50,744 nucleotides of DNA, from the NCBI GenBank assembly GCA_937870635.1, contig CALMZP010000169.1, positions 1 to 50,744 of the forward strand, in the 5' to 3' direction. Made by a program: the position numbers and the translations under genes. The notes under the pieces are model-generated. The model saw only the letters and a list, made by a program, of their open reading frames with translations, made no database searches and was not told the DNA's origin. Below, piece after piece: positions 3,127 to 18,789 of the stretch. The DNA is from an uncultured Acidobacteriota bacterium. GTDB taxonomy: Bacteria; Acidobacteriota; Thermoanaerobaculia; Gp7-AA8. Position 1 is the first letter of the stretch, and the number at the start of each line of letters is the position of its first letter.

Positions 3127-3301
3127 TCCGATCGACTTTTCCACGGTCCCGACGACCCCTGAGGACGTGGAAATGCTCCAGGCGGTTCGAAGACTCGATC
3201 GGCTCGGGCCGGCCGAGTATCTCGATTTCCTGCTCGCCTTCAGCGATCGTCATCCTCCCGGACGCGACATTCCGCCGAAGCACGAGCCCTTCATCTTGTG
3301 A
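3104..3301 (+). CDS. Small partner protein of the nucleotidyltransferase
   Basis: A 65-aa acidic protein starting at ATG 3104 inside the 3' end of the nucleotidyltransferase gene. GGAG at 3093-3096 is a well-placed ribosome site. No transmembrane segment or signal is seen. The sequence (PTTPEDVEMLQAVRRLDRLG, then EYLDFLLAF) predicts a short helical protein. The overlap implies coupled expression and suggests an antitoxin or regulatory subunit, but I recognise no family. It ends before a non-coding gap leading to the convergent dehydrogenase gene. Confidence 0.6.
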   Translation: MPSPDKRDPIDFSTVPTTPEDVEMLQAVRRLDRLGPAEYLDFLLAFSDRHPPGRDIPPKHEPFIL

Positions 3302-3387
3302 AGGCGGCTCCGAATGCCGTTCGGATCGAAAGCGAGGATCGTTTCCGTTGCAGCTCGCCGCCCGGACCCTGACCGGCGAGCGACGAT

Positions 3388-4308
3388 TCACATCGCCAGC
3401 AGCACTTTCAGCACGCCCGGCCGCCGCGCATGCTCGAAGGCCGCGACGGCGTCATGGAGGGGAAAGACGCTGTCAATGAGCGGCCGCGGATCGAGCGCTC
3501 CGGAAGCAAGAAGCGGGAGCGCCGGCGCGAACGGGCCGCAGCGCGATCCGATGAGTGTGATCTCGTCGACAACCAGCGACGAGGCGTTGATTCTGAGATC
3601 GCCCGCATAAGTGCTCTTCATGACCAGCGTTCCGCGGGGCCGGAGCGCGCGGCGGGCCACTTCGAACCCTTCCGGGCTGCCGCTGCATTCGATGGCGATG
3701 TCGAAGGCGCGCGCGGGCACATCGGCCGTGGCAACTCCGCGATGCCGGCCCGCAACGGTGAGGCTGCATCCCGTCAACGCCAGCGTGGCCGCGATCAGCT
3801 GGCCGAGCTTTCCGGCCCCTACGATCAGCACGCGGTCGTTGGGACCGATTTTCACCTGCTCCTGAATCTCCAGAGCTGCCGCGAGCGGCTCGGTGAACAC
3901 CGCGATCTCCGGCGGCATCTCGGCGGGCACGACGTGCAGGTTGTCGACCGGCAGCGTCAGGTATTCGGCGAATGCCCCGTTGCGATTGACGATCCCCAGC
4001 ACGCTGCGGCGCTCGCAGTGTGTGGAACGGCCATGGCGACAGGCCTCACAGGCGTGACAGACAGCATTGATCTCCCCGACGACGCGGCGTCCGGCGAGCT
4101 CCGGTCCTCCGCTCGCGACCACCCCCACGAACTCGTGACCGGGGATGCCGGTGAAGGGGTAGTACCCCCGCGTCAGCTCGATGTCGGTATTGCAGATTCC
4201 GGCGAGGAGAACACGGACGAGCGCCTCGCCCGCCGGCGCCACGGGTCTGGCGACCTCGCGAAGGGAGAGCGACTGCTCTTCGAGCCAGAGCGCCCGCATC
4301 AGCGTCAT
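3388..4308 (-). CDS. Zinc-dependent alcohol dehydrogenase (MDR family)
   Basis: A medium-chain dehydrogenase/reductase of about 306 aa from ATG 4308. The N-terminal GroES-like domain has the catalytic zinc site GICNTDIE and GHEFVG and the structural zinc loop CHACEACRHGRSTHC with four Cys. A TEPLAAALE helix precedes the Rossmann domain with GAGKLG (nucleotide binding). It should oxidise an alcohol or polyol, or reduce the corresponding carbonyl, with NAD(P) in the cytoplasm; the substrate cannot be told. The frame extends upstream to 4380, but the family begins at MRALWLEE, so 4308 (or 4299) is preferred although no strong ribosome site is seen. It is shorter than typical ~340-aa members, compact in the C-terminal part. 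Confidence 0.88.
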   Translation of the reverse strand: MTLMRALWLEEQSLSLREVARPVAPAGEALVRVLLAGICNTDIELTRGYYPFTGIPGHEFVGVVASGGPELAGRRVVGEINAVCHACEACRHGRSTHCERRSVLGIVNRNGAFAEYLTLPVDNLHVVPAEMPPEIAVFTEPLAAALEIQEQVKIGPNDRVLIVGAGKLGQLIAATLALTGCSLTVAGRHRGVATADVPARAFDIAIECSGSPEGFEVARRALRPRGTLVMKSTYAGDLRINASSLVVDEITLIGSRCGPFAPALPLLASGALDPRPLIDSVFPLHDAVAAFEHARRPGVLKVLLAM

Positions 4309-4434
4309 GGTGTCAGGTCTGGAAAAACAACTTTTCTTCCATTTGTAACCGCCCTCCGGAGGTCGCGAGGGTGTCGTCATTCTGGTGCTTGGATGGCGCG
4401 GGGTGCTAGTCCCGGGATCTAGTAGTTCAACACG

Positions 4435-5646
4435 TTATCTCACCTGATCCGACACGATGACCCCGTCGATGAGCACATGCGTCACGTGCGTCGTGTATTC
4501 GAAAGGATCGCCGTCGAAGAGCGCGAGATCAGCGTCTTTCCCCGCTTCGATGGATCCGACGCGATCGGCGATGCCGAGGATTCGCGCGGCATCGATGGTG
4601 ACCGTTGCCAGCGCTTCGGCCGGCGTCAGGCCGTTCGCCGCGGCCACGGCCGCCTCGAACAGCACAACCCTGGTCTTCGGCACATAGCCCTCGAAACCGC
4701 TCTGCAGCGCGACGGGAATGCCCGCCCTGCGCAGCGTGGCCGCGGTCTCGAAGCTGAGATTCTCCCGATCGCCGTACGACCGGGACATCGTCGGATGCAG
4801 GATCACCGGGATTCCCGCCGCCTTGATCTGGTCGACGACGAGGTACGCCTCCGATGCGCTGTCGAGAATGATGCGGATGTCGAACTCCTTCGCAACGCGC
4901 AGCGCGGCGAGGATGTCGCGGGCGCGATCGGCGGTGACGAGCAGCGGCAGTTCCCCGCGCACGACTCTGGCCAGCATCTCCAGACCGAGGTCGCGGGAGG
5001 GCTTGCCGTCGTCTTTCGCGGAGGCGGATTTGCGCGAATACTCCTGCGCCTTCACGAGCTCGCCGCGGAGCATGGCGATTTCCTTCGGGCGAGTCCCGGG
5101 CGCTTTGTTGTCCTCGCCGAGGCCCGCTTCGCCGAGTGCGACCGCGATCATCGCTTCGGGACGCAGCATCGCTTCTTCGACGGAGTTGCCGCGCGTCTTC
5201 ACGATCATCGTCTGGCCGGACATGAGAGCCGCCGGCGCATGCCCGGTGTGAATCGTCGTCACCCCGAACCCTCGGATCCACGAGACGAGCTCTTCGCGCG
5301 GATTGTAGGCGTCGATCGCCCGCAGCTCCGGCTGCATTGCTTCGGTTCTCTCGACCTGATCCTGATCGTGAGGCTGATTCAGATAGCCGGCGAGGCCGAC
5401 CACCGTGTGGGCATCGATGAGTCCCGGCGTCACGGTCCGCGCTTCGATGACACGGTATCCGGCGGGGACGGCCAGCGAGGCGCCGACGCCCTCGATTTTC
5501 CCATCGCGAACGAGGACGACGCCGTTGCGGATCGGAGGGCCGGTCATGGTATGGATCGTTCCGGCCTTGACGGCGATGGGTGCCGCGGGCTGTGCAGAGG
5601 CGGCGGCAGGCGTGAGCAGCAGCAGTACGAGGATTGAATGCTTCAC
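4435..5646 (-). CDS. Secreted amidohydrolase-like protein lacking metal ligands (probable pseudoenzyme)
   Basis: A 403-aa protein with a signal peptide (MKHSILVLLLLTPAAASAQ), starting at GTG 5646. It has the amidohydrolase composite layout: an N-terminal beta-sandwich (GKIEGVGASLAVPAG), the TPGLIDAH strand, a TIM barrel and a C-terminal AGKDADLALFDGDPF strand. Compared with its upstream neighbour every metal position has changed: HxH is DAHTVV, the HHHTHRHDD block is LLVTADRARD, LQHVSEG is LDSASEA, and the late FHTDDG is LQSGFEG. It is therefore unlikely to be a binuclear or mononuclear metal hydrolase of the usual type. GTGA overlap with the neighbour indicates translational coupling and perhaps a heteromeric complex in the periplasm. 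Confidence 0.85.
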   Translation of the reverse strand: MKHSILVLLLLTPAAASAQPAAPIAVKAGTIHTMTGPPIRNGVVLVRDGKIEGVGASLAVPAGYRVIEARTVTPGLIDAHTVVGLAGYLNQPHDQDQVERTEAMQPELRAIDAYNPREELVSWIRGFGVTTIHTGHAPAALMSGQTMIVKTRGNSVEEAMLRPEAMIAVALGEAGLGEDNKAPGTRPKEIAMLRGELVKAQEYSRKSASAKDDGKPSRDLGLEMLARVVRGELPLLVTADRARDILAALRVAKEFDIRIILDSASEAYLVVDQIKAAGIPVILHPTMSRSYGDRENLSFETAATLRRAGIPVALQSGFEGYVPKTRVVLFEAAVAAANGLTPAEALATVTIDAARILGIADRVGSIEAGKDADLALFDGDPFEYTTHVTHVLIDGVIVSDQVR

Positions 5647-6938
5647 CGCGCGTCTCCTTCACCGATGCAGTCGAGATGGAGGACCTGGTCGCGGCTGGCT
5701 CCGTAGCCTCCCACGGCGTAGAGCCGGTCCTTCGGGTCGTCACGATCGAAGACTTTCCGGCCTTCGACCCACGTTTCCAGAACGTGGGTGTAAACGCTCA
5801 GGGGATCGCCGGAGAGGATGATGAAATCGGCATCCTTGCCGGGAGCAAGGGTGCCGACGCGGTGGTCGAGCTCGAGCATCCTGGCATTAGAGATGGTCAT
5901 CGCCTCCAGCGCCTTCGCGCGCGACATGCCCGCGCGAACGGCGAGTGCCGCGGAGCGCAGAAACAATCTCGAATCGGTGATGCCGTCGTCGGTGTGAAAT
6001 CCGACGAGGACGCCCGCGTCGTCGAGCACTTTGCCGGTCGTGTACGAGAGGTGCCGCGTCTCGAGTTTCCCGCCCGGGCTGTCGATCATGATGATCGATG
6101 CGGGCGCGCCGGCGGCAGCGATCTCGCGGGCCACGCGCCATCCTTCGCTGACGTGCTGGAGAACGACGCGGAACCCGAATTCCTTCGCCAGGCGGAGCAC
6201 GGTGAGGATGTCGTCGTGCCGATGCGTGTGGTGATGGACGACGCGCTTCCCCTCCAGCACCTCGGCGAGCGCTTCCATGGCCAGGTCGCGGTCGGGCCGC
6301 TTCGATGGATCGCCGCGCCGCATTTTCTCGCGGTATTCCTGCGCTTTGACGAACTGTTCGCGGATGAGGGCGGCCGCCTTCGCGCGCGTGCCGGGGAAGG
6401 GAGCGGCTCTCCGCGGATTCGTGCCGTTGGCCATCTTCAGTCCTCCGGCCACTCGCCCGTCGGGGAGTCGGATCATGAGGTCGTCGATGCTGTTGCCATC
6501 GCGAAGCTTGAGGTAGATCGTCTGCCCGCTGAGCAGATGGCCCGATCCGGGCATGATGTTGACGGTCGTGATGCCGCCCGCCTGCGCTTTCTGAATGCCG
6601 GCGTCGCGTACGTTCACCGCATCCATCACGCGCACTTCCGGCTGAATCGGATTGCTGCTGTCCGCGCCGGCAGCCTCGCCGATGTGGCTGTGGGAATCGA
6701 CGAGCCCGGGCATGATGGTCCTGCCCGTGAGATCGACGCGCTCCGCACCGGCGGGGATGGTGACGGATCCCGTCGCCCCGACGGCGACGATCGTTCCCTC
6801 TCGGACGATGAGCGTTCCGCTCTCGATCTCGGGGCCGGAGACCGGAATGACCTTCGCCCCTGTGAAGGCAATGGTCTGCGCGGTCACCGTGGAACAGAGA
6901 AGCAGCGCGCCGATTGGCGGCAGAAGCAATCTTCGCAA
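5643..6938 (-). CDS. Secreted amidohydrolase (imidazolonepropionase-like)
   Basis: A 431-aa protein with a signal peptide (MRRLLLPPIGALLLCSTVTA) and complete metal motifs: MPGLVDSHSHIG near residue 80, HHHTHRHDD, LQHVSEG and FHTDDG, with the terminal APGKDADFIILSGDP strand. It belongs to the amidohydrolase superfamily of exported cyclic-amide or dipeptide hydrolases; the substrate is unknown. The start is TTG 6938, preceded by an AGGGAG-type ribosome site, and it is chosen because it gives an intact signal peptide. Its stop overlaps the start of the ligand-less paralogue by four bases (GTGA), so the two form one operon. The shared layout indicates tandem duplication followed by loss of the active site in one copy. 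Confidence 0.9.
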   Translation of the reverse strand: MRRLLLPPIGALLLCSTVTAQTIAFTGAKVIPVSGPEIESGTLIVREGTIVAVGATGSVTIPAGAERVDLTGRTIMPGLVDSHSHIGEAAGADSSNPIQPEVRVMDAVNVRDAGIQKAQAGGITTVNIMPGSGHLLSGQTIYLKLRDGNSIDDLMIRLPDGRVAGGLKMANGTNPRRAAPFPGTRAKAAALIREQFVKAQEYREKMRRGDPSKRPDRDLAMEALAEVLEGKRVVHHHTHRHDDILTVLRLAKEFGFRVVLQHVSEGWRVAREIAAAGAPASIIMIDSPGGKLETRHLSYTTGKVLDDAGVLVGFHTDDGITDSRLFLRSAALAVRAGMSRAKALEAMTISNARMLELDHRVGTLAPGKDADFIILSGDPLSVYTHVLETWVEGRKVFDRDDPKDRLYAVGGYGASRDQVLHLDCIGEGDAR

Positions 6939-7022
6939 TGTGGACTCCCTCGCAGTTCGTTTCGGGCGCTCAGTCTAGCGGATTCGAGGGGGCGCGCCAG
7001 ATTCTCATCCCTGGCGAGATGA

Positions 7023-7694
7023 ATGAGGACCGCCGCACCCTTCTGGTTGCCCGGCACCCTGGCTATGATCGCGGTGTTGACCGTTCCGCTTCGTCCCGCG
7101 CTCGTATTCGTTCTGATCCTCGGCGCCTTTCCCGGTTCCGCCGCTCCGGAGAAAGTCGGGCGGGCGATGGTGACCTTCTACTACACCCTCGACGAATCGA
7201 CTCCGCGCTATGCGGGAGAACCTTCGGTAGACCTTCGCGGGCCGAGCGGCAAGGTGATCGCCCGCACGACGCGGCGCTTCCGGAACGCCCTCGTGGTGCA
7301 GGGCACAGGGGTTCTCCGGGACGGACGGACGGTCTTCTACTACGGAAAGGTGGGCGGAGAGCACCGGTTTCGTCTGACGTCGAAGTCGAAGTATGGGATC
7401 GGCAGCACGGGATGCGAGCTCGTTCCGTTTCGCACGATCGCTGTGGATCCGAACTTCGTACCGCACCGGTCGAAAGTGTACATACCGGAGATGAAGGGCG
7501 CCCGGCTTCCGGACGGGACGATCCACGACGGCATGTTCGTAGCCACCGACCGCGGGCACTTCAAGGGTGCACGAGTCGATCTCTTCGTAGGGATCGGCTA
7601 TGCAGGATCGAAGGTTTTCAGCCGGCACGGTTATGGCTCCCGCTCGAGGGTCACGATCTACGTCGACGGCAAGACGCGGAAGTGCCGGCCGTGA
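7023..7694 (+). CDS. 3D-domain (MltA-like double-psi barrel) exported protein
   Basis: A 223-aa protein with a hydrophobic N-terminal segment serving as signal or anchor (PALVFVLILGAFPGSAA). The C-terminal half contains the 3D domain named for its three aspartates: FRTIAVDPNFVP, then a VYIPEMKG turn, MFVATDRG and VDLFVG. In MltA-type and resuscitation-promoting-factor proteins this barrel acts on peptidoglycan, so a cell-wall role in the periplasm is likely. Upstream residues (YYTLDESTPRYAG, RDGRTVFYYG) resemble the beta-rich lead-in of stand-alone 3D proteins. An alternative start at ATG 7065 would shorten the N-terminus without losing the signal. It is a single gene, divergent from the amidohydrolase pair. 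Confidence 0.82.
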   Translation: MRTAAPFWLPGTLAMIAVLTVPLRPALVFVLILGAFPGSAAPEKVGRAMVTFYYTLDESTPRYAGEPSVDLRGPSGKVIARTTRRFRNALVVQGTGVLRDGRTVFYYGKVGGEHRFRLTSKSKYGIGSTGCELVPFRTIAVDPNFVPHRSKVYIPEMKGARLPDGTIHDGMFVATDRGHFKGARVDLFVGIGYAGSKVFSRHGYGSRSRVTIYVDGKTRKCRP

Positions 7695-7702
7695 TCACGG
7701 CA

Positions 7703-7739
7703 GTCACCCGTCACTCGTCACTCGTCACCCCCGTCACCT
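7703..7739 (+). repeat. Tandem GTCACYC heptamer repeat
   Basis: Four head-to-tail heptamers (GTCACCC, GTCACTC, GTCACTC, GTCACCC) occupy 7703-7730 and a fifth, GTCACCT, follows after two bases. It lies directly after the stop of the 3D-domain gene in the short intergenic space. It is a simple tandem repeat with no spacers and no flanking mobile gene. Confidence 0.7.
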
Positions 7740-7825
7740 GACTCGACTTGTGTTACCGTTTTCCCGCCCACACCTGACCGCCCGGTCTGACGTCACTCGC
7801 TTCTCTCGCATTCCCCGAAAACAAC

Positions 7826-8329
7826 ATGAAGAGTGGACTCGTGTGTGCGGTTCTTCTCATCCATGCATCGTGTCTGGCCGCGGCGATGTCCCGCGTCGTC
7901 GAGGTCCGCGACAGCCGGACGGTCGTCGTGCAATCCAACGGCATCGCGGTTGTGATCCAGCTTCGCGAGGTCGTCGTTCCGAATGGCGATGAACCGGCCG
8001 CGGTGGAGTACCTCCGGCGAACGCTCGACGGGCGATGGGTCTATGCCGAAAGGGGCGACGTCTATCGCTCGCCCGACGGCCTGTACGTGAACGACGCCAT
8101 GAGACGCCGGGCCTGGCTCGGCGCGACGTATATCGGAGAGCTCGCCTTCCCCGCTGCCCGCCGGTCGATGACGCATCTTCTCGGCAACTCGCCCCAGGCA
8201 GAGAAACCCCCTTCGAAACGTGCGAAGGCCAAATCGCGTCCACGGACCCGATCGCGCCCGCCGGTGAAGCGATTCAACGCCGCGAAGCCGAGGCCGTATA
8301 TCTCATCGAGTACAAACGGAGGACAATGA
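7826..8329 (+). CDS. Exported SNase-like (OB-fold) small protein
   Basis: A 167-aa protein with a signal peptide (MKSGLVCAVLLIHASCLAAA). Residues ~22-75 follow the staphylococcal-nuclease-like pattern: VVEVRDSRTVVVQSNG, IQLREVVVPNGDEPAAVEYL, GRWVYAERG, as in domains where a basic loop and a small barrel hold a substrate. The canonical catalytic Arg/Glu/Arg set is not clearly preserved, so nuclease activity is uncertain. The C-terminal ~50 residues are very basic and low-complexity (KRAKAKSRPRTRSRPPVKR), suggesting nucleic-acid or envelope binding. The stop overlaps the next start as ATGA, so it is coupled to the Spy-like gene. Confidence 0.7.
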   Translation: MKSGLVCAVLLIHASCLAAAMSRVVEVRDSRTVVVQSNGIAVVIQLREVVVPNGDEPAAVEYLRRTLDGRWVYAERGDVYRSPDGLYVNDAMRRRAWLGATYIGELAFPAARRSMTHLLGNSPQAEKPPSKRAKAKSRPRTRSRPPVKRFNAAKPRPYISSSTNGGQ

Positions 8330-8793
8330 TGACGACACGACGGAAAACGATTCTGGGGATTTCAGCGGCGCTTGCCCTCGGTCTCGCCGCTTCGCCCTTC
8401 CTGATGGCGCGAGGGCATGGACCGAAAACCTTCGGGGGCCACTTCGGGCACCACGCCGGGTTCGGAAAGATGTCGGAGCTCATGAAAGAGCTCGACTTGA
8501 CGGCCGAACAGAGAGAGGCGCTTCACCGGATTCATGAGACGACGTTCGGGAACAACAGGCAGGTCCGCGCGGCGCTGCATTCCGGATTCATGGATGCCGC
8601 TCAGGTTCTCGTCGCCGATCCTCGGAACGTCCAGGGAGCGCGCGCCGCGATCGCAGCGCAGCAGGCATCCATCGACCAGCTGAAGGAGAGTGCCCTCGGC
8701 GCGGTTTCGCAGGCCTTGGCCGTTCTGACGCCGGAGCAGCGCGCGAAACTCGCGGCGCACATCGAGGAGCATCGCGGCGACCTCACCCGGTAA
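8326..8793 (+). CDS. Spy/CpxP-family periplasmic protein
   Basis: A 155-aa exported protein with a signal peptide (TILGISAALALGLAASPFLM) and a His/Gly-rich mature start. Two LTxxQ motifs, LTAEQREALHRIH and LTPEQRAKLAAH, bracket a helical body. These are the hallmark of the Spy/CpxP/ZraP group of periplasmic chaperones and metal-linked stress sensors. ACGGAGGACA gives a strong ribosome site before ATG 8326, and the ATG overlaps the upstream stop. The His-rich segment (RGHGPKTFGGHFGHHAG) hints at metal binding. A terminator follows at 8815. Confidence 0.85.
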   Translation: MMTTRRKTILGISAALALGLAASPFLMARGHGPKTFGGHFGHHAGFGKMSELMKELDLTAEQREALHRIHETTFGNNRQVRAALHSGFMDAAQVLVADPRNVQGARAAIAAQQASIDQLKESALGAVSQALAVLTPEQRAKLAAHIEEHRGDLTR

Positions 8794-8814
8794 CATGGCG
8801 TGTGCCCTCGCAGA

Positions 8815-8847
8815 GGAGGGTCTCCTGGCGGGGACCCTCCTGATTTT
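8815..8847 (+). terminator. Intrinsic terminator after the Spy-like gene
   Basis: GGAGGGTCTCC (8815-8825) pairs with GGGGACCCTCC (8830-8840) across a TGGC loop, with one G-T pair, and is followed by TGATTTT. It lies 22 bases after the stop at 8793 and separates this operon from the fragment at 8953. Confidence 0.75.
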
Positions 8848-8952
8848 GGCGATGGGGGATCGAGAGCCATTGCGTTCGCGAGATCTGTCTGGCGATCCCC
8901 TCGAGAATCGGGCCATCGAGCGGGCCCGAAGCGGCGATGGTGACTCGAGGGA

Positions 8953-9126
8953 ATGCTGCGCTCGCTGAACGAAGTCCACGCGAACATGCAGCGGGAGTTC
9001 AGCGAGACGCACGCGGAGATCGAACAGGTTCTCACGCCTCAGCAGCGCGAGAAGTTCCGCAGGATGCACCGCCGGTGGCACCGGCCCAGAGGCGCTGACG
9101 GGGGAGCTTCGGCGCGATCGCGGTGA
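8953..9126 (+). pseudogene. Fragment of a second LTxxQ (Spy-like) protein
   Basis: A 57-codon open frame from ATG 8953 encodes MLRSLNEVHANMQREFSETH, then AEIEQVLTPQQREKFRRMH and a basic His/Arg tail. This matches the last helix and second LTxxQ motif of Spy/CpxP-type or heavy-metal-sensor proteins. There is no signal peptide or first half: an in-frame TGA at 8941 blocks extension upstream. GAGGGA lies immediately before the ATG, too close for an efficient ribosome site. It is most likely the 3' remnant of a duplicate of the neighbouring Spy-like gene, though a small expressed cytoplasmic helix cannot be excluded. Confidence 0.5.
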
Positions 9127-9229
9127 GTAGCCGGGCTTTGGATTCGAGAAGACAGACGGATAAACCGGCCTGACTTTTCGCCGAACATTCACGCTGCGAC
9201 TCGACCGTTCGACCCTTGACCTTGCGAAG

Positions 9230-9275
9230 TTGGACCTTGGGACCCGGCTTCAAGTTCCAGGGTCCCAGGGTCCAA
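9230..9275 (+). repeat. 16-bp near-perfect inverted repeat
   Basis: TTGGACCTTGGGACCC (9230-9245) and GGGTCCCAGGGTCCAA (9260-9275) pair at 15 of 16 positions across a 14-base loop. Related GGACCTT and GGGTCC units lie on both sides (9211-9288). It sits in the ~200-base space before the translocase-HEAT gene, where a promoter or leader would be. It may be a REP-like element or a regulatory hairpin. Confidence 0.6.
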
Positions 9276-9328
9276 GGTCCGGGGTCCAACGCCCGCCGGA
9301 CGCACCGCAGTACAATAACCATCTCCAA

Positions 9329-12214
9329 ATGGAATCGGATGTGACTGTTCAGCCGGCGGGCGACCGCATCGGCGGAGTTCTGCGCCGTTTGCTCAGCCGC
9401 TTCGGTGTGCATTTGCGGAAAGGGGAAGCCGGGCCGGCGATCCTTCTCTTTCTCACATTCTTCCTTCTCATCACTTTCCAATACACGACGAAGAGCGTCC
9501 GGCAGTCGACCTTCATCAACAGCCTCGGCGCGGAGAAGCTCCCGTACGTCTACCTCTTCATCGCCGTCTCCTCGTACCCGTTCCTGCGGCTGTTCGGCCG
9601 CTTCGCGGACGCGATGCGGCGCGACACACTGATCATCGCCACGTGTGTTTTCACTGCTTCGACGATGGCCGGCTTCTGGCTTCTGTTCGAATATCCGTGG
9701 CAATGGGTGCCCTTCGCCTTCTACGTCTGGATCTCGATCACCACCGTGATGATGGTGAGTCAGTTCTGGTCCTTCTCGAGCCACGTGTTCGATCCGCGTC
9801 AGGCCCGGCGGCTCTTTGCCTTCATCGGCGCGGGCGGCCTCCTCGGCGGCGTCATCGGAGGACAGGTCGCGAAGTTCGCGACACGCCTGGTTGGAACGAG
9901 CTATGCGCTGCTGGTCGCCGGCGGCATTCTGCTTCTGCTGGCGGTGCTTATCTGGATGGCGCGGCGTGTTCGGACGGTTGACGACCGTCGCGTTGCCGGC
10001 GCTGCCGGGCTGGCGCCGCTCGACGAAGCGCGCGGCGGCTTCGAGCTGCTGCGCCAGTCGCCGCACCTGAAGAGCATCGCGGCCATCATGCTGCTTACGG
10101 TCGTCGTCGCGCAGATCGTCGATCTGCAGTTCAACTGGGCGGTGCAGCAGTCGACGACGACGCTCGATCAGCGGACGGCCTTCTTCGGAAACTTCTACAG
10201 CATCATCGGGATCATGGCCTTCGTCTTCCAGCTGATCTTCACGGCGCGCATTCACGGCAGGCTGGGAGTCGGATTCGCGATGCGCGTTCTCCCGGTCGCG
10301 ATGGCCATCGGCACCCTGGCCATGCTCGTCGCCGCCGCGGGTGCGCCGGAGCTGATCCTCGCTGCCGCCCTCGTGCTGAAGACCGGCGAAAACGGGGTCC
10401 GCTACTCGCTCGACCAGGCTACGCGCGAGCTTCTCTTTCTGCCGATCCCTTCCCGCGCGCGCGTCAAGGCCAAGGCCTTCATCGACGTCTTCGTGCAGCG
10501 ATCGGCAAAGGGTGTCGCGGCTCTCCTGCTGCTTCCCGTTGCGTTCGGCGTGATGACGCCGCCTCAGGCCGGATGGATCTCCGTGGCGCTCATTGTGATG
10601 TGGCTGGCCGCGACGGTCGTGGCGCGGCGGCATTACGTCGCGTCGTTCCAGGCGGGTCTGAAGCAGAAGAACGTGACCGCGGGCGCAGTCGACCTGAGTG
10701 ACGCCACCGCTCTCCAACTGGTCGTCCAGGCGCTCGGAAGCACGGATGCCCATCAGGTCATTCACGCCCTCCATCTGCTTCAGAAGAACGATCGCGCCAA
10801 TCTCGTTCACCCGCTACTCCTGTACCACGACAGTGCGCCCGTTAGACGGGCGACTTTGCGTCTCCTCGCAACCGCGGGGCGTTCGGATGCGCTTCCGCTC
10901 ATCGCACGTTCTCTGTCCGATCCCGACACCAGCGTTCGGGCAGAGGCGGTGATGGCGGTAGCGGCTTTGCGGAAGACGGATGCCACGTCGCTCATGGCGC
11001 CGTATCTCGACTCGAACGAGCCGCGCCTCGTCTCGGCTGCCATTGTCGCCGTCTGCAAACATGGAGACGACTCGATCAAGCGCCGCGCCGACCGGGCGTT
11101 CGAACAGCTGCTGGCTGATGACGACCCCGACGCGCGGGCCGAGGCGGCGAGGGCCGCGGGTGCGGTGGCGATGCCGGGAGAGGCGCACGCGCTCACCTCG
11201 CTGCTCGGCGACCGGGACGCGGACGTGGTGCGGGCAGCGATCGGCGCGGTTCGCAGACGCGTGGTCGCCAACGGTCCGTCGCCGATTTACGCGGCTTCGC
11301 TCATCTCTCTTCTCGATGACCGCCGTCTCAAGCACGATGCCCGGCAGGCGCTGATCGCTTTCGGCGAGCCGGTCATCCCGGCGCTGCTTCATTTCATGAA
11401 CAGTCCGGACGAGCGGATCTGGGTTCGCCGCGCGATTCCCAAGACGATCGCCATGATCGGGGGCCCGACCGCTGCCGCGGCGCTGGCGACATCTCTGCGC
11501 GCAGCCGCCGACGCATTTCTGCGGCGGAAGATCATTGAGGGACTGGGGGCGATATCCGAAAGCGGCGGCCGGTCTCAGGATGAGCGCGAGATTGCCGCGG
11601 CCATCGCCTCCGAGAGCGAACGCTATTTCCGGGCGCTTGCATCGCTGACGGCGCTGGGATCGATGAAGCACGCTGAGATGTGCGGGCCGATCGTGTCGTG
11701 GGATGAGGAACAGTACGCACCGACTCTCCTCGACCGTCTTCTCAGCGAGCGCATGTCCGACGCCGTCGGCAATCTCTTCGGGCTTCTGGCCCTCACCGGC
11801 GATCGCCGGAATCTGCGCGATGCGCATCGGAGCTTGACTAGTGGAAACCCGGGTGTCGTCGGAAACGCCGTCGAGTATCTCGACAACACCCTCGCCCCCG
11901 CGCTGAAACGGTTCGTGCTCCCGGTCGTCGAAGATCATCCGCTCGACGAACGCCTGCACGCCGCTAACAGACTGTTTTCCATCGCCGTCGGCTCCCGCTT
12001 CGACGTCCTCGGGGCACTCGTGGAAGAGTCGTTGACGCAGGATGGCACCGGATCGGGGTGGGGGGCGGCGGCGATGTACGAGGTCTATGCATCGCGGACG
12101 GCACGGCTTTACCACGCCGTTCAAAGAGTCAGAGGCAGCGAGCTCGCCGATCCGTTGTCGCGTGAGACAGCGGACTGGATCGCCGGGCGGATCGATCTCG
12201 TCAGCGCGACCTGA
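9329..12214 (+). CDS. ATP/ADP-translocase-like (Npt1/Npt2-type) transporter fused to HEAT repeats
   Basis: A 961-aa membrane protein from ATG 9329. Residues ~35-440 form about a dozen membrane spans of the nucleotide-transporter (NTT/MFS) type: FLTFFLLITFQYTTKSVRQS, AVSSYPFLRLFGRFAD, then ARRLFAFIGAGGLLGGVIGG and late spans before ARRHYVAS. Residues ~455-940 are tandem HEAT-like repeats (for example HQVIHALHLLQKN, PVRRATLRLLATAG, SVRAEAVMAVAALR, DARAEAARAAGAV). NTT proteins exchange ATP/ADP or import nucleotides in obligate intracellular bacteria; free-living bacteria carry HEAT-fused relatives of unknown role. The gene is followed after 14 bases by a cNMP-binding protein and heads a co-directional cluster, suggesting nucleotide-responsive transport or signalling at the inner membrane. 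The true substrate is not known. Confidence 0.85.
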   Translation: MESDVTVQPAGDRIGGVLRRLLSRFGVHLRKGEAGPAILLFLTFFLLITFQYTTKSVRQSTFINSLGAEKLPYVYLFIAVSSYPFLRLFGRFADAMRRDTLIIATCVFTASTMAGFWLLFEYPWQWVPFAFYVWISITTVMMVSQFWSFSSHVFDPRQARRLFAFIGAGGLLGGVIGGQVAKFATRLVGTSYALLVAGGILLLLAVLIWMARRVRTVDDRRVAGAAGLAPLDEARGGFELLRQSPHLKSIAAIMLLTVVVAQIVDLQFNWAVQQSTTTLDQRTAFFGNFYSIIGIMAFVFQLIFTARIHGRLGVGFAMRVLPVAMAIGTLAMLVAAAGAPELILAAALVLKTGENGVRYSLDQATRELLFLPIPSRARVKAKAFIDVFVQRSAKGVAALLLLPVAFGVMTPPQAGWISVALIVMWLAATVVARRHYVASFQAGLKQKNVTAGAVDLSDATALQLVVQALGSTDAHQVIHALHLLQKNDRANLVHPLLLYHDSAPVRRATLRLLATAGRSDALPLIARSLSDPDTSVRAEAVMAVAALRKTDATSLMAPYLDSNEPRLVSAAIVAVCKHGDDSIKRRADRAFEQLLADDDPDARAEAARAAGAVAMPGEAHALTSLLGDRDADVVRAAIGAVRRRVVANGPSPIYAASLISLLDDRRLKHDARQALIAFGEPVIPALLHFMNSPDERIWVRRAIPKTIAMIGGPTAAAALATSLRAAADAFLRRKIIEGLGAISESGGRSQDEREIAAAIASESERYFRALASLTALGSMKHAEMCGPIVSWDEEQYAPTLLDRLLSERMSDAVGNLFGLLALTGDRRNLRDAHRSLTSGNPGVVGNAVEYLDNTLAPALKRFVLPVVEDHPLDERLHAANRLFSIAVGSRFDVLGALVEESLTQDGTGSGWGAAAMYEVYASRTARLYHAVQRVRGSELADPLSRETADWIAGRIDLVSAT

Positions 12215-12228
12215 GGCAGGAAGAGGAC

Positions 12229-12657
12229 ATGGCTGAACTGGCGAGAATCGAAACGGTCGTCCTGCTGCAGAGCGTCGATTTCTTCAGCGCCTGCACCGCG
12301 GAGGAAGTACTGCGGATCGCGTCGATCGCACACGAACGCCGCGTTCCGGCCGGTGAAGAGCTCTTTCGCGAGCGCGATCCCGCCGACACGCTTTACTGCG
12401 TCGTGCGGGGAGAGATCGAGGTCCGCGGCCGCGACGGGCGGACCGAGGTGGCTGGACCGCTGCAGACCGCGGGATTGTTCGATCTGCTGAGCGGCCGGCT
12501 GCACGGAGTCCGCGCGGTCGCGCGAACCGAGGCGCTGCTGCTTGCAATCGGAGCAGACGACTTTTTCGATCTGCTCTCGAACAACATCGAGCTGGTGAAG
12601 TCGTTGTTCCGGCATCTGATTCTCCGCATCGATCAGGATGGGAAAGGGAACGGTTGA
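12229..12657 (+). CDS. Single-domain cyclic nucleotide-binding protein
   Basis: A 142-aa protein that is almost wholly one cNMP-binding domain (residues ~12-135): LLQSVDFFSACTAEEVLRIA, RRVPAGEELFRERDPADTLY, CVVRGEIEVRGR and the phosphate-cassette position GLFDLLSGRLHGVRAVA. The cassette lacks the classical E and R of cAMP-binding sites, so ligand affinity is uncertain. There is no DNA-binding helix, unlike CRP. AGGAAGAGG precedes ATG 12229. Being 14 bases after the HEAT-fused transporter, and overlapping the next gene by one base (TGATG), it probably acts as a sensing subunit of that complex. Confidence 0.85.
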   Translation: MAELARIETVVLLQSVDFFSACTAEEVLRIASIAHERRVPAGEELFRERDPADTLYCVVRGEIEVRGRDGRTEVAGPLQTAGLFDLLSGRLHGVRAVARTEALLLAIGADDFFDLLSNNIELVKSLFRHLILRIDQDGKGNG

Positions 12658-14777
12658 TGCTGTCGCGTGCGCACGCTTTTCTGCTGTCGCTCGTTCTGTT
12701 TGCGGCCCCGCTGCATGCCGCCGCGCAGCGCGTGGTCGCCGTCGGTGACATCCACGGTGAGTACGAAGGACTGGTCTCGATTCTGAAGAAGGCGGGGATC
12801 ATCGACGACAGGCTGCGGTGGGCCGGCAAACGAACCATCCTCGTCCAGACCGGTGACTATCTCGATCGCGGCCCTGACGTCCGGAAGGTGATGGACCTTC
12901 TGATGTCGCTCGAGAGAGCGGCGGGGCGATCGCGCGGCAAAGCCATCGTGCTTCTCGGAAATCACGAGCTGATGAATCTGACGTCGGCGCTGCAGGACGC
13001 GAACCCGGCGGCGTACGCGGCTTTCGCCGATCGAGGTTCGGAGCGACGCCGGAAGGGAGCTTACAAGGCCTATCTGGAACTGCACACGCGCCTGTCCGAC
13101 CGTTATCAGCGGCCACCGTGGCGCCTCCTCGACGAGAGCGCCTGGATGGAGCAGCACCCTGCCGGATACGTCGAGTATCAGCAGGCCCTCACCCGCAACG
13201 GGAAATACGGCCGGTGGCTGCGCAGCAAGACGGTGGTTGCCAAAGTGGAGGGCACGGTGTTCGTCCACGGCGGCATCAGTCCGAAAGCCGATCTCACGAC
13301 CATGGACGAGATCAACAAGCGCGTCCGCATCGAGATCGAAGGGTTCGACCGCATCCGCGAGTACCTCGTCGCGCAGAAACTGATCCTCCCGTTCTTCACA
13401 TTCAGCGAGATCTCGAGCGTCGTCGATCTCGAGCTTCTTCTCCGCAGGGAAGAGGCGTCGGAGGAGATGCGCAAGGTGCTGAATGCGTTCAAGACGGTGC
13501 AGTACTGGACCATCTACGATCCGGAGGGACCGGTGTGGTTCCGCGGTTTCGGGAACTGGACCGAGGAAGAGGGAGCACAACACATCGGCGACCTGCTCGA
13601 GAAGTTCCAGGCGCGACGGTTCGTCGTCGGGCACACGATTCCCGAGGACGCGAGCCGCATCCGATCGAGATTCGACGGCCGGGTCTTTCTCATCGACACG
13701 GGGATGCTGCGCAATTACGCGAAGGATGGGCGTCCGGCAGCGCTGGAGATCATCGGCGATACGCCCGTGGCGATCTACGAGAGCGGGCGTGTGGTGCTCA
13801 GCGGCAATGCTCCGCAATCGAGCCGTCGTGCGGCACCATCGTCATCCGCATTCGTCCGCGCGTCGTTCTCACTCGATGACCAGTCTCCCGCTTCGGCGCC
13901 GTTTGTCTGGCTCGGGCCGGACGACACGACGCTGCCGTTCCGAACGTCGGAGGAAGTCGCGGAGTTTCTTCGCACGGCGAAGCCCGTCAAAGTCGATCGC
14001 CAGAAGCTTCAGGGAGTGACGAAGCCGCAGAAACTGCTGGTGCAGAACGGCACCGTGCGCGCTCGCGCCGTGTTTCGCTCGTTTCATCGCGAGGAGGAGA
14101 ACGCGCACTGGGAGTCGGGCGTGTTCACGATCTTCCTCCGCGATACGTGGAAGTCGGAGATTGCGGCCTACCAGCTGGCGCTCCTGCTCGGGCTCGACAC
14201 CGTCCCGCCGACGGTTCCCTGGGAGTTGAAACGGAGGCGGGGGTCACTGCAGCTCTGGATCGAGAATGCGAAATGGGGATTTCACCCTTCCGGCACGCAG
14301 GTTCCCAGCGATCCCGATCTCTGGGCGCGCGAAGAGGAAAAGATGCGCGTTTTCGACGCGCTCATCGGAAACACGGACCGGCACGAGGCGAACGTCCTTC
14401 TGGACTCGCGGGGGAAGGTATGGTGGATCGATCACAGCCGTAGCTTCGGCCGCGAGAAAGAATTGTTGAAGCCCGAGGCGATCCGTCGGTGCGAGCGGAA
14501 GTTGTGGGAAGGGTTGAACCGCATCAGTCCTGAAGCGATCGCCGCGCGGCTCACTCACTGGATGAGTGTGAAAGAGATCGATGCGCTCCTCGAGCGGCGA
14601 CTGCGCCTGATCGCCCTCATCGACGAGAGAATCAGGACTGAGGGCGAGAAGGCGGTTCTGTTCACCATCGGCGTGGACGAAGGGCCGTTGCGTAGCGTTC
14701 CGCGATCCGCCCGCAACCCGTTCGCGTCGCTGGAGACCCTGACCTCCGGGATTCCGATGGCACCGCACACGCGCTGA
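12657..14777 (+). CDS. Metallophosphatase fused to a PI3K/HipA-like kinase domain
   Basis: A 706-aa protein beginning with a signal-like segment (MLSRAHAFLLSLVLFAAPLH). Residues ~28-360 are a PPP-type metallophosphatase: GDIHGE, GDYLDRG, GNHE, then FVHGG and VVGHT supply the metal ligands. After a linker, residues ~430-690 resemble the atypical kinase fold of PI3/4K, actin-fragmin kinase and HipA: FDALIGNTDRHEANVLL matches the D-x-H-x-x-N catalytic loop and WWIDHSRSFG the metal-binding DxG region. Opposing phosphatase and kinase activities in one chain recall AceK, but neither is proven here. If secreted, the kinase would lack ATP unless the neighbouring translocase-like protein supplies nucleotide. 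Start ATG 12657 overlaps the previous stop; TTG 12654 is an alternative. Confidence 0.8.
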   Translation: MLSRAHAFLLSLVLFAAPLHAAAQRVVAVGDIHGEYEGLVSILKKAGIIDDRLRWAGKRTILVQTGDYLDRGPDVRKVMDLLMSLERAAGRSRGKAIVLLGNHELMNLTSALQDANPAAYAAFADRGSERRRKGAYKAYLELHTRLSDRYQRPPWRLLDESAWMEQHPAGYVEYQQALTRNGKYGRWLRSKTVVAKVEGTVFVHGGISPKADLTTMDEINKRVRIEIEGFDRIREYLVAQKLILPFFTFSEISSVVDLELLLRREEASEEMRKVLNAFKTVQYWTIYDPEGPVWFRGFGNWTEEEGAQHIGDLLEKFQARRFVVGHTIPEDASRIRSRFDGRVFLIDTGMLRNYAKDGRPAALEIIGDTPVAIYESGRVVLSGNAPQSSRRAAPSSSAFVRASFSLDDQSPASAPFVWLGPDDTTLPFRTSEEVAEFLRTAKPVKVDRQKLQGVTKPQKLLVQNGTVRARAVFRSFHREEENAHWESGVFTIFLRDTWKSEIAAYQLALLLGLDTVPPTVPWELKRRRGSLQLWIENAKWGFHPSGTQVPSDPDLWAREEEKMRVFDALIGNTDRHEANVLLDSRGKVWWIDHSRSFGREKELLKPEAIRRCERKLWEGLNRISPEAIAARLTHWMSVKEIDALLERRLRLIALIDERIRTEGEKAVLFTIGVDEGPLRSVPRSARNPFASLETLTSGIPMAPHTR

Positions 14778-14795
14778 TCGGCGAGGTTTCTTCTG

Positions 14796-16898
14796 TTGCG
14801 GAAGAGCGAGTTCATCCAGCAGCTTCGAACACTCGCCGGCACTCGGGTGTCCGGCCTGGATGATTCGTGCAAGAGCGAGATCATGCAGAGCCTTGCCGCG
14901 GAGCTGGTCTCGCGAAGCGGCGGGCTGCCCGAGATCGAATGGGTGCCGTTCGTCACCGGCCGCCGTCCTGTCGACGAGGCCTCCTTCCCCGGCCTCGGAT
15001 CGAGCGACAAGGTTGCGCTGATCCTCGACTCGATCCCGTCAGGAGAAAACAAGGCGTTTCTGCTCTATCGCCTGAGCGACATTCCGGCGGAGGATGCGGC
15101 ACGGTACGCGGTGCGGCTGTCACTGTCGCCAGCCGGCCCGTGGGGTGACGTGAGCTCGGAGCCGATGCCGGAGTGGAACGAAAGGGCGATCCAGCCGCTC
15201 GGGTTCGGCCGGACAGCAGATGAACAGCCGGTTCTGACTCCAGTCGATCTCTCCGCTTCGCGTGACGGCTGCCTGGTCGTTGCCCTCGATCCGCGGGATC
15301 TTGCCTTCGATGGAGCCTTCACGTTCGAGCACTTCTTCATGCAGCAGGTTCGTGCCGAGATCGTTCTCTTCAAAGATGACGTGGCGGTGTCCGCTTCACA
15401 GATGATGATCGACGTCTCTGACGCGCGGCGGATAGGATCACTTTACCGGCGTGTGATCGATCGCGTCGTTGCCATCGACACAGCGAAACAGGCGCGCGCG
15501 CACGGGCTCGATCGCCTCGATGTGTCCTGCCATCCGTGGTACCCCGTGCTGCTCATCGGCTTGGAGAAGACCGCGCTCTACATGCGCGCCCTCGCGGAGG
15601 ACATCGTCCGCAAGCAGCGGCATCTCACCGACCCCGGCTGGCTACTCAAGGTCGGGATCTACCTCGAGTTGCTGACGTGCCTGGGGATCTTCGACGCGGT
15701 GCGCGAAGACGTGGACGATGCGCTCGCGCCGGAAGAGCGGGCCGCTTATGAATCCGCGGCGGATTTCGCTCCGATCCGCGAAGCGGTGAACGCGTCGGCA
15801 TGGAAAGACGTGTGGGCACATCGCCAGATCGCGATGCCTCCGCGCGGCTCGCGACCCGGACCCAAGATTGCGGCGAAGAACCTTCTCGCCAAGAAGGCGG
15901 CCACGCTCGCATTTCTCGAGGCTCACCATCACGACCTCCGGCATGCCATCCGACTGGCCGGAGCGAACGATCACAATGCGCAGGAGACCTGGCACCGCGT
16001 TTTCCGCGACGCGGAGCGCGCGGTGCTCCGCAAGACGCCTGCAGCGTTCGCTGAACTCGAGGCTTTCCCGGCGAAAGCTCAGGAGTTCATCCTGTGGCAC
16101 CGGAAAGGTGTGTTCAGCGGTTTGTCTCTTCCCACCGTGTCCTCATGGTTCGGTGATCAGGACGGTCTCTACGCGAATGCATGCAATCAATACCGCGCGT
16201 CGATGAACGAAGTGGCCGAATGGGCCAAGCAGGAAGGCCTGATGGACCACACGGGAAGCGAATGTATTCCGGAAGCGGTGAGCCTGCTCAAGACGATGAT
16301 GGAGGGGAGAGAGGAAGCGCTCATGCAGCTGCAGCGGCGCGACGGTTACGCGGGCACCGATGATCTGCCAGCCGGTCCCGTGTGCCTGCGAGCGGCAGCG
16401 CCCGGTACGATCGTCGCCCTCCTCCGCTCCATTCCGATCTTCGGCGCGCTGACCGATGACGAGATCCGCCAGCTGGCCTCGACGATCCGGCCGATCGAGC
16501 TGGGGCCCGTCGAGCGCATCATCGTGCAGGGGCGAAAAGGGACGTCGCTCTTCATCGTCGCCGAGGGGAATCTCGAGGTGATGGTGCGCCAGAAAGATGG
16601 CGTCGACCTTCGCGTAGCGATGCTCGAGCAGGGCTCGGTGTTCGGTGAGATGTCCCTTCTGACGGGGCAGCGGCGGAGCGCCACCGTTCGTTCGATCGAG
16701 ACCGCGGTCGTCTACGAAGTCGGGCAGCAGCAGCTCGCCCCGATCCTCCGCTCGCGGCCCGCCGCGGTTCAGGAGCTCGCGGCAATCATGGCCCCGCGCC
16801 TTCACGCGACGGCGGCCGCGAGTCACGGATACGAATCACGCAAAGCTGTCGTCTCGCTGAGCCGCCGGATCCGTTCATTTCTGTTGTCGCCCATCTGA
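14796..16898 (+). CDS. Large unknown protein with C-terminal cNMP-binding domain
   Basis: A 700-aa cytoplasmic protein. Residues ~1-530 are unrecognised: an N-terminal mixed region (residues ~1-210) and a long helical middle with LRHAIRLAGANDHNAQETWH. Residues ~540-660 form a second cyclic nucleotide-binding domain (LLRSIPIFGALTDDEIRQLA, SLFIVAEGNLEVMVRQ) with a better-preserved cassette, GSVFGEMSLLTGQRRSATVR, containing the E and R that bind the cyclic phosphate. Thus this member of the cluster probably does bind cAMP or cGMP. The start is TTG 14796, 18 bases after the phosphatase-kinase stop, chosen for continuity of predicted helices. It ends with a basic helix. Confidence 0.75.
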   Translation: MRKSEFIQQLRTLAGTRVSGLDDSCKSEIMQSLAAELVSRSGGLPEIEWVPFVTGRRPVDEASFPGLGSSDKVALILDSIPSGENKAFLLYRLSDIPAEDAARYAVRLSLSPAGPWGDVSSEPMPEWNERAIQPLGFGRTADEQPVLTPVDLSASRDGCLVVALDPRDLAFDGAFTFEHFFMQQVRAEIVLFKDDVAVSASQMMIDVSDARRIGSLYRRVIDRVVAIDTAKQARAHGLDRLDVSCHPWYPVLLIGLEKTALYMRALAEDIVRKQRHLTDPGWLLKVGIYLELLTCLGIFDAVREDVDDALAPEERAAYESAADFAPIREAVNASAWKDVWAHRQIAMPPRGSRPGPKIAAKNLLAKKAATLAFLEAHHHDLRHAIRLAGANDHNAQETWHRVFRDAERAVLRKTPAAFAELEAFPAKAQEFILWHRKGVFSGLSLPTVSSWFGDQDGLYANACNQYRASMNEVAEWAKQEGLMDHTGSECIPEAVSLLKTMMEGREEALMQLQRRDGYAGTDDLPAGPVCLRAAAPGTIVALLRSIPIFGALTDDEIRQLASTIRPIELGPVERIIVQGRKGTSLFIVAEGNLEVMVRQKDGVDLRVAMLEQGSVFGEMSLLTGQRRSATVRSIETAVVYEVGQQQLAPILRSRPAAVQELAAIMAPRLHATAAASHGYESRKAVVSLSRRIRSFLLSPI

Positions 16899-16916
16899 CG
16901 CGTTGGAGGAGAGCTC

Positions 16917-17345
16917 ATGAGAATCGCGATCGGGGTCTTCTGTTGTTTCGCGGCGGTCGCCGCGTTCGCCGATGAGAAAGGCGAACGAACCGAGAACCGG
17001 ACGGGCGAGTGGTGGAAAACGATCGAGACGGACGAGGAGAAGTACATCTACCTCACCGGCCTGCGCGACGGCGCTCTTCTGGGCATGCTCTATTCGCTGC
17101 CGAAGAGCGCCGAGAACAGCCCCTGCCGTCCGAAGCTGATGCAGACCTATCTCCAGCGCGATACGGTGCTGGCGTCCGTCACGACCGCAGCGCTGGCCAG
17201 GATGCTGGATGAGTTCTATCAGGATCGCGCGAACGCCAGGGTCATGGTGCCCGCCGCAGTGTTCTACATTTCGCGCCGGCTGGCCGGCGACCCGCGCAAG
17301 GTTCTGCAGGACCTCCTGGAAAGCTTAAGAAAGAACGAAGGATGA
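16917..17345 (+). CDS. Small exported protein of the translocase/cNMP cluster
   Basis: A 142-aa protein with a signal peptide (MRIAIGVFCCFAAVAAFA). The mature part has the pattern GEWWKTIETDEEKYIYLTGL, then RDGALLGMLYSLP, and a helical end (KVLQDLLESLRKNEG), resembling small periplasmic proteins of the Rap1a-like type by size only. GGAGGAGAG precedes ATG 16917, which lies 18 bases after the cNMP-domain gene, so it belongs to the same transcript. A four-base ATGA overlap leads into the truncated gene at 17342. I do not recognise a family. Confidence 0.7.
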   Translation: MRIAIGVFCCFAAVAAFADEKGERTENRTGEWWKTIETDEEKYIYLTGLRDGALLGMLYSLPKSAENSPCRPKLMQTYLQRDTVLASVTTAALARMLDEFYQDRANARVMVPAAVFYISRRLAGDPRKVLQDLLESLRKNEG

Positions 17346-17850
17346 AACACCTGGCGGTCGCCATTCTGCTGCTCGCGTTCAATTCGGCGCCTGTGTAGCG
17401 GCGGTCATAGCGGAAGCCGAGGCGGGTCACGACGGCGATGGAAGGATCGTTGCCGGGATCGATCACCGCCACGACGCGCGGCCGCTGCAAGGTGTGGAGC
17501 ACGTGATTCATCGCCGCGCGGCCCGCTTCGGTCGCGTAGCCGCGCCCCCAGACGTCGCGACCGAGCCACCATCCGATCTCCAGATCGCCGCTTCCGCCGA
17601 GCGGCTGCACGCCGGCCACGCCGACGATGCGTCCGCTGCTCTTCTCGACCATGGCCCCCATGCACATGTCGCGGGTTTCGAGCTGACGCTGCTGCCGCGC
17701 CAGAAACTCATCGATCTCGGTTTCTGTATAGGGCTCGCCGCGATGCACGTAGCGCATGACCTCAGTGTCCTGAGTGAAGGCGGCAAATGAGGGCCGGTCG
17801 GCGGGCTGCCACGGCCGGATCGTCAGCCGCTCGGTATCGAGGTGGAACAT
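17242..17850 (-). CDS. GNAT N-acetyltransferase with an aberrant C-terminus
   Basis: A 202-aa protein whose first ~150 residues are a RimJ/RimL-type GNAT domain: LDTERLTIRPWQPADRPSFA, ARQQRQLETRDMCMGAMVEK, DLEIGWWLGRDVWGRGYATE, NDPSIAVVTRLGFRYDRRYT. These proteins transfer acetyl from CoA to an amine, often a protein N-terminus or a small molecule. The acetyl-CoA loop is present. After RYTGAEL the usual last beta strand is absent, and the frame runs antisense through a truncated signal peptide and 104 bases of the preceding gene, giving a Cys/Arg/Pro-rich tail. The enzyme probably lost its last ~15 residues in a deletion; whether it folds is uncertain. Confidence 0.75.
   Translation of the reverse strand: MFHLDTERLTIRPWQPADRPSFAAFTQDTEVMRYVHRGEPYTETEIDEFLARQQRQLETRDMCMGAMVEKSSGRIVGVAGVQPLGGSGDLEIGWWLGRDVWGRGYATEAGRAAMNHVLHTLQRPRVVAVIDPGNDPSIAVVTRLGFRYDRRYTGAELNASSRMATARCFILRSFLSFPGGPAEPCAGRRPAGAKCRTLRRAP
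17342..17398 (+). pseudogene. Truncated exported-protein gene (signal peptide only)
   Basis: ATG 17342 overlaps the preceding stop (ATGA) and opens MKHLAVAILLLAFNSAPV, a typical signal peptide, then meets TAG at 17396-17398. The next gene of the operon therefore survives only as its signal sequence. The break coincides with the abnormal C-terminus of the oppositely oriented acetyltransferase, so a deletion joined two genes tail to tail near 17380-17398. Confidence 0.6.
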
Positions 17851-18129: not shown

Positions 18130-18789
18130 ATGACCGACGGAACTGAAGCCTCTTATACCTTCGATCAGTTCGAACTTGACTGCGCATCGGGCGAGGTACG
18201 CCGGGAGGGGAGCCTTCTCGCTCTCCGCCCCAAGGTGTATGCCCTCCTTGTCTATCTCGTCAGCCATCGGGGGCGCCTGATCCCGAAGGACGAGCTCATT
18301 CGTGCGATCTGGGGGGAAGTCTCTGTCAGCGACGGCAGCCTCAATCGCGCCATCGCCGAGCTGCGCAGCGCGCTCGGCGACGAGTCGGCGGATCCGCACC
18401 TGATCGAGACCGTACCGCGGCGCGGTTACAAGTTCATCGGGAAGGTCGCTGAGAGCAAGCGCTCCGTGGAGCGTACGTCGGGCTTCATTCTCATCACGGC
18501 TGAGCGAACGATTCCGCTGCCGCTCGGCGAGACGATCATCGGCCGGACCCCGGAATGCAGGGTCCAGATCATCGGGCCGTCCGTGTCGCGGCGTCACGCC
18601 CGGATCGTCGTATCGGAGCAGGGCGCGGCGATCGAGGATCTGCAGAGTCTGAACGGCACCTACGTGGAGGACCAGAAGATCGATCAGTCCACGCCGCTCA
18701 AGCATGGAGATCAGATCCGGATCGGGAAAGAGCGCGTCCGGTTTCTCTCCGACGCCACGTTTCGAGCGCGAACCGAGCCGGCATTCTGA
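18130..18789 (+). CDS. Winged-helix (CadC/OmpR-type) regulator fused to FHA domain
   Basis: A 219-aa cytoplasmic protein. Residues ~8-105 are a Trans_reg_C winged helix: FDQFELDCASGEVRREGSLL, LRPKVYALLVYLVSHRGRLI, then NRAIAELRSALGD and VPRRGYKFIG, which is the DNA-contact wing. Residues ~120-215 are an FHA domain with IIGRTPECRVQIIGPSVSRR HAR, LNGTYV and LKHGDQIRIG, including the Gly-Arg, Ser, His and Asn positions that bind phosphothreonine. The fusion suggests a transcription factor that reads Ser/Thr phosphorylation in place of a receiver domain. No cognate kinase of the Hanks type lies in the window. The gene is monocistronic and convergent with doxX. Confidence 0.88.
   Translation: MTDGTEASYTFDQFELDCASGEVRREGSLLALRPKVYALLVYLVSHRGRLIPKDELIRAIWGEVSVSDGSLNRAIAELRSALGDESADPHLIETVPRRGYKFIGKVAESKRSVERTSGFILITAERTIPLPLGETIIGRTPECRVQIIGPSVSRRHARIVVSEQGAAIEDLQSLNGTYVEDQKIDQSTPLKHGDQIRIGKERVRFLSDATFRARTEPAF

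Follow-up and report, generated by a model that had tools for sequence, protein, structure and literature searches.

A conserved acidobacterial operon joins an NTT-HEAT carrier and a CNBD-fold protein to a predicted exported phosphatase-kinase

Introduction

Proteins in which an NTT-type nucleotide translocase domain is followed by a HEAT-repeat tail (NTT-HEAT) are widespread, and Chlamydia trachomatis has one (PMC5381601). Their association with an adjacent gene for a cyclic nucleotide-binding domain (CNBD), along with fused forms, was published in 2017, at which time their function was not known and neither the chlamydial protein nor any cyanobacterial one had been characterized; the text of that survey does not mention kinases, and mentions phosphatases solely with regard to PP2A (PMC5381601). 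Here, we follow up a first-pass annotation of contig CALMZP010000169.1 (50,744 nucleotides (nt); hereafter, the window), one of the 171 contigs of a 4.5-Mb assembly of an uncultured Acidobacteriota bacterium (GCA_937870635.1), in which five consecutive genes, designated A to E, had been proposed to form an undescribed module (Table 1). We report that A, B, and C are a conserved operon across many families of this phylum, in which an NTT-HEAT protein and a CNBD-fold protein are joined by a predicted exported phosphatase-kinase, and that D and E are not members of this module. The operon suggests, without proving, that phosphorylation outside the inner membrane draws on ATP delivered by the carrier.

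The A-B part of the operon was thus already known (PMC5381601), and only the link to a phosphatase-kinase may be new. A search of the open-access literature, which does not extend to most subscription articles and preprints, returned no association of kinases and phosphatases with NTT-HEAT; this does not prove that the link is undescribed.

Results and discussion

Conservation of the A-B-C operon

In the window, open reading frames (ORFs) A to E are all present on the + strand between positions 9329 and 17345, with gaps of 14, -4, 18, and 18 nt (A/B, B/C, C/D, and D/E, respectively), confirming the co-directional and nearly gapless arrangement initially noted. For a phylum draw of 297 genomes, the surroundings of A matches were fetched and annotated with profiles built from the window proteins, and these contexts come from almost every A-positive genome, linked or not. 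Matches to A were detected in 59 of the 297 genomes and matches to C in 70, with both present in 48 (odds ratio 43, Fisher p 1.2e-27 over the 297 genomes, related genomes not being independent). Among 57 genomes with context, a PPP phosphatase or kinase gene was located ≤10 kb from NTT-HEAT in 25, from 14 of 29 families, and both were found within this distance in 20, while a CNBD was fused to or adjoined NTT-HEAT in 39.

We also evaluated a class-level set of the 34 best loci chosen by similarity to C alone, their neighbors being disregarded in the choice; this set overlaps the phylum draw in two genomes and in the window's own class. When ≥3.5 kb of upstream DNA was available (24 loci), NTT-HEAT was found ≤3 kb away on the same strand in 17 loci, and A or B likewise in 21. 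Full PPP-kinase fusions had NTT-HEAT there in 14 of 16 cases, and in the other two the available sequence stops at a contig end, 2.9 kb and 2 bp upstream, respectively. The A-B-C order recurs with 4-nt overlaps among related operons, B lying between A and C, or being fused to A, in most relatives. Pairwise distances over 11 complete operons were correlated (A-B 0.90, A-C 0.86, B-C 0.73), a pattern to which shared species history contributes. Taken together, the linkage in the C-chosen set, the recurring order and overlaps, and the correlated distances identify A-B-C as a conserved operon. Rare co-occurrence, which the first-pass annotation had named as the result that would count against its five-gene module, was thus not observed for A, B, and C. 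It was observed for D and E, which were never found beside A-B-C in any other fetched context and accordingly drop out of the module.

Other genomes of the window's order yielded no match to C, and matched A only weakly and in its transporter part. In Chloroflexota, C-like matches were detected in 2 of 201 genomes and covered the phosphatase part only; hence, the window's own phylum was the one of the two tested in which the module was found. Carriage by mobile elements was considered and rejected: the kinase of C had no plasmid match and the plasmid matches of D were limited to the CNBD, as in mechanosensitive channels, while in viral contigs the matches were confined to 34 residues of D and to the phosphatase domain of C.

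Table 1 Coordinates and domain assignments of the five genes in the window
Gene	Description	Coordinates	Strand	Basis
A	NTT/TLC-type nucleotide translocase domain with HEAT tail	9329..12214	+	Pfam matches to PF03219 and PF13646
B	Single-domain CNBD-fold protein	12229..12657	+	PF00027, 53.4 bits
C	Predicted exported fusion of PPP phosphatase and Fam20/PI3K-like kinase	12654..14777	+	Metallophos 4.7e-13, PI3_PI4_kinase 1e-6
D	700-aa protein with C-terminal CNBD	14796..16898	+	cNMP_binding at residues 571-652 only
E	142-aa protein with signal-like N-terminus (by eye)	16917..17345	+	No Pfam/NCBIfam match

Domain content of A, B, and C

The assignment of A as an NTT-type translocase with a HEAT tail is borne out by matches to PF03219 (TLC; 48.6 bits, gathering score 21) and HEAT_2 (PF13646; 85 bits), with the NTT/TLC domain spanning residues ~20-440 and the C-terminal HEAT repeats residues ~450-880. 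Its closest solved structures (PDB) are the ADP,ATP carriers 9j3n and 9j3j, and full-length homologs, 43-49% identical, occupy the same operon position. A has the same domain order as the NTT-HEAT and NTT-HEAT-cNBD proteins of Major et al. 2017, for which the CNBD gene is likewise found a few nt downstream or fused; the system reported here differs in that a predicted exported phosphatase-kinase joins the operon (PMC5381601). A second NTT-type gene in the window's genome (G000:C109:57187-58386) is without a HEAT tail, and neither PPP nor kinase genes were found in its vicinity.

B and the C-terminus of D both match PF00027, as expected of CRP-type CNBDs, yet only D retains the canonical phosphate-binding cassette. 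In the alignment, B displays Leu and His where this cassette has Glu and Arg, i.e., the equivalents of CRP Glu72 and Arg82 are absent, and the canonical Glu is also missing in 39 of 41 CNBDs fused to or adjoining NTT-HEAT. Because the canonical pair is missing from its pocket, cyclic-nucleotide sensing by B is unsupported; a role as a classical cyclic-nucleotide sensor was rejected, and the earlier view of this protein as a cNMP sensor is doubtful.

C combines a Shewanella-like PPP phosphatase domain (residues ~22-370) with a kinase domain (residues ~425-680). The nearest PDB entries to the former are those of psychrophilic phosphatase I (2z72, 1v73, and 2zbm; 7e-24 to 1.4e-23, next match 3.3e-5), which is a Shewanella-like phosphatase (PMC535813), and the metal-binding motifs GDxHG, GDxxDRG, GNHE, and HGG are all retained in C and hardly vary across an alignment of 23 proteins. 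Unlike these phosphatases, however, C includes an extra C-terminal kinase domain and is encoded in an NTT operon. The initial description of a PPP phosphatase fused to a PI3K/HipA-like kinase was thus accurate regarding the fusion, but not regarding the closest relatives of the kinase: when a profile of 20 kinase domains was compared to the PDB, FAM20A came first (4.7e-11), followed by FAM20C, nematode Fam20, FAM20B, and then PI4K2. With 22.9 bits against a gathering score of 26.8 for Pfam Fam20 (PF06702), the kinase domain of C, as judged from these profiles, resembles the Fam20 fold without being filed as a member of the family.

Clear equivalents of the Fam20 motifs E..AAYxLxxLLGLxxVPPTV and IGNxDRH and of the Asp of IDHxRxF were identified, with C itself carrying IGNTDRH and IDHSRSF, aligned with FAM20A, and thus the catalytic and metal-binding Asp residues of Fam20. 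Among relatives, Asp145 (DRH) is found in 30 of 34 kinases and Asp163 (IDH/LDN) in all 34. In contrast to Fam20A/B/C, kinases of the C type are bacterial, fall under the Pfam Fam20C cut-off, and frequently come with a PPP phosphatase, either in a fusion or as an adjacent gene. A signal-like, hydrophobic N-terminus ahead of the PPP or kinase domain was observed for 22 of 23 PPP and 21 of 22 kinase proteins (43 of 45) vs 101 of 296 neighboring ORFs, as well as in 31 of 32 members of the C-chosen class set, and no further transmembrane-like stretch was found in the 45 PPP/kinase proteins beyond this N-terminal segment. Since nearly all of its PPP/kinase relatives have such N-termini, export of C and of these relatives is likely, and this predicted targeting outside the cytosol would be a further likeness to Fam20A/B/C.

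D and E as probable local additions

D and E look like local additions with separate histories. No match to D was detected in the 296 other genomes of the phylum draw. Its full-length relatives, 44-47% identical, come from four Chloroflexi metagenome-assembled genomes (MAGs) and one Eremiobacterota MAG (L009-L013), in which the neighbors vary between genomes and the locus contains none of A, C, and E; among 400 Chloroflexota genomes, the sole full-length match was in G309, the source of a known relative. E matched 5 of the 297 phylum genomes, its own included. The rare 700-aa family of D displays long invariant motifs, e.g., GRRPxxExxxPGLGSSD, AQETWxRVFRDAERA, and NQYRxSMNEVAEWAK, and the TTG start of D is supported by relatives that begin at the same residue.

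As the first-pass annotation had stated, D ends in a well-formed cyclic-nucleotide site (FGEMSLLTGQRRSATV), with the canonical cassette Glu and Arg both present and a CNBD fold match at Z ~15. Given this cassette, and since the window's genome holds a PF00211 nucleotide cyclase domain, D may well bind a cyclic nucleotide. The N-terminal ~530 residues had no match to a known family, AlphaFold models from six sequences were poor (pLDDT 64.8 for the whole protein and 50.9 for residues 1-525), and fold searches returned the CNBD only, plus generic beta-sandwich matches that were weak and did not reach E 0.001.

A candidate system for phosphorylation outside the cytoplasm

The interpretation we favor, tentatively and with slightly less than even confidence, is that A-B-C is an operon for reversible phosphorylation outside the cytoplasm in which A supplies the nucleotide. 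C would be exported via a Sec-type signal, its Fam20/PI3K-like domain would phosphorylate targets in the periplasm or at the cell surface, and the phosphate added by the kinase domain would be removed by the PPP domain. A would be an inner-membrane NTT-type carrier, with its HEAT tail expected in the cytoplasm, and would either supply nucleotide that is unavailable to the exported kinase in the periplasm or swap ATP for ADP. Docking of B on the HEAT tail would gate A, probably without classical cAMP binding, so that B and the tail would together regulate the carrier. A kinase outside the cytoplasm requires a nucleotide donor and, to our knowledge, the periplasm is not known to contain ATP at cytoplasmic levels, which makes supply of C by A the simplest account. 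The earlier suggestion of a translocase feeding an exported kinase fits the signal-like N-termini of C and its relatives, both transport and kinase activity being predictions only.

Fam20 secretory kinases work in a compartment that needs an ATP supply. A dedicated system of bacteria of this phylum, with ATP exported by the inner-membrane carrier for use by an exported Fam20-like kinase and with an opposing phosphatase that often shares the kinase's polypeptide, is conceivable, though in this strong form we lean against it; if true, the combination of an ATP-exporting carrier and an exported kinase would be a counterpart of the secretory pathway of animals, which is likewise supplied with ATP. 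More broadly, the conserved link to kinase and phosphatase genes predicted to be exported gives NTT-HEAT proteins a first concrete and testable function, and would bear on the question of how bacterial kinases outside the cytoplasm obtain ATP. Fam20 has been treated as an animal family (PMC7948968, PMC9758233), an account that would need widening should exported kinases of the Fam20 kind prove ancient among bacteria.

Several observations weigh against a carrier that energizes an exported kinase. A is far under the cut-off of NCBIfam TIGR00769 (NTP/NDP exchange transporter; 57.7 vs 387.2 bits). Both the Lys that precedes 'FIDV' and the Glu of 'AELWGS' matter for ATP/ADP carriers; in NTT-HEAT proteins the Lys, two residues ahead of 'FIDV', is retained nearly throughout, while the Glu of the canonical-carrier 'AELWGS' is missing. 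With this loss and a divergent NTT domain, the cargo of A may not be ATP/ADP. On the kinase side, the Asp of the DRN motif is missing in 4 of 34 kinases, and signal peptides were judged by hydrophobicity rather than with a dedicated predictor. Regarding linkage, 22 of the 70 genomes with PPP/kinase matches are without NTT-HEAT at E 1e-40, and four loci (L170, L175, L176, and L182) carry B and PPP with no adjoining NTT. In these four loci the CNBD gene B either overlaps the PPP gene or directly adjoins it, so B and C may be partners independently of NTT.

The divergence of NTT-HEAT at residues typical of ATP/ADP carriers is what lends weight to an alternative in which A carries another cargo, such as a different nucleotide or a product that has gained or lost a phosphate, that C processes in the periplasm, the operon then serving scavenging or uptake instead of signaling. 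Fam20B is a sugar kinase (PMC7948968), so the fold of C does not imply protein substrates. An extracytoplasmic kinase would nonetheless still need a nucleotide donor, and no binding protein, porin, or catabolic enzyme is prominent among the recurrent neighbors; overall, we consider this alternative unlikely, if the most serious competitor. The close linkage of A and C and the correlation in their divergence, together with HEAT and CNBD parts that look regulatory (PMC5381601), could also be explained if C acts on the extracytoplasmic side of A, by sensing or modifying it, and thereby regulates a transporter whose nucleotide transport is not for the kinase's benefit. This seems improbable to us, however, as up to four kinase genes occur per NTT cluster (L113, L114), suggesting several substrates, and PPP-kinase pairs exist without NTT nearby.

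Alternatively, the shared operon may reflect co-regulation only, with transport and phosphorylation not directly coupled. The 11 of 59 genomes that have NTT-HEAT but no C, and the converse counts given above, are consistent with such a loose association, but order and spacing are retained over many families and NTT-HEAT is directly upstream of nearly all PPP-kinase fusions, so that we regard co-regulation alone as quite improbable. Finally, the co-directional layout with gaps ≤18 nt would be expected if all of A-E, D and E included, were one functional unit; yet D is not in other sampled genomes of the phylum and stands alone in other phyla, and the other fetched contexts of A-B-C include neither D nor E, making a five-gene unit very improbable.

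Neighboring genes and sequence features

All five genes have a coding-like GC content at third codon positions (0.76-0.81), and the ATG start of A at 9329 lies inside a longer TTG ORF from 9230. Between positions 8780 and 17500, no match to a sigma-70-like promoter was found and terminator-like sites occurred only at chance level.

Beyond the window, two loci (L113 and L114, ~3000-16800) contain four signal-bearing Fam20-like kinase genes alongside one PPP phosphatase and three NTT-type genes. Genes for FHA-domain-like proteins recur beside NTT-kinase clusters in three families (L112-L117), the other recurring neighbors belonging to broad families, e.g., response regulators. In the window itself, an ORF just downstream of the cluster (18130-18789, + strand) encodes a winged helix (Trans_reg_C) fused to an FHA domain. 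A GNAT acetyltransferase ORF on the - strand (17242-17850) overlaps E by ~100 nt at its 3' end, and two adjoining - strand ORFs at 4435-6938 resemble amidohydrolases with signal peptides (by eye).

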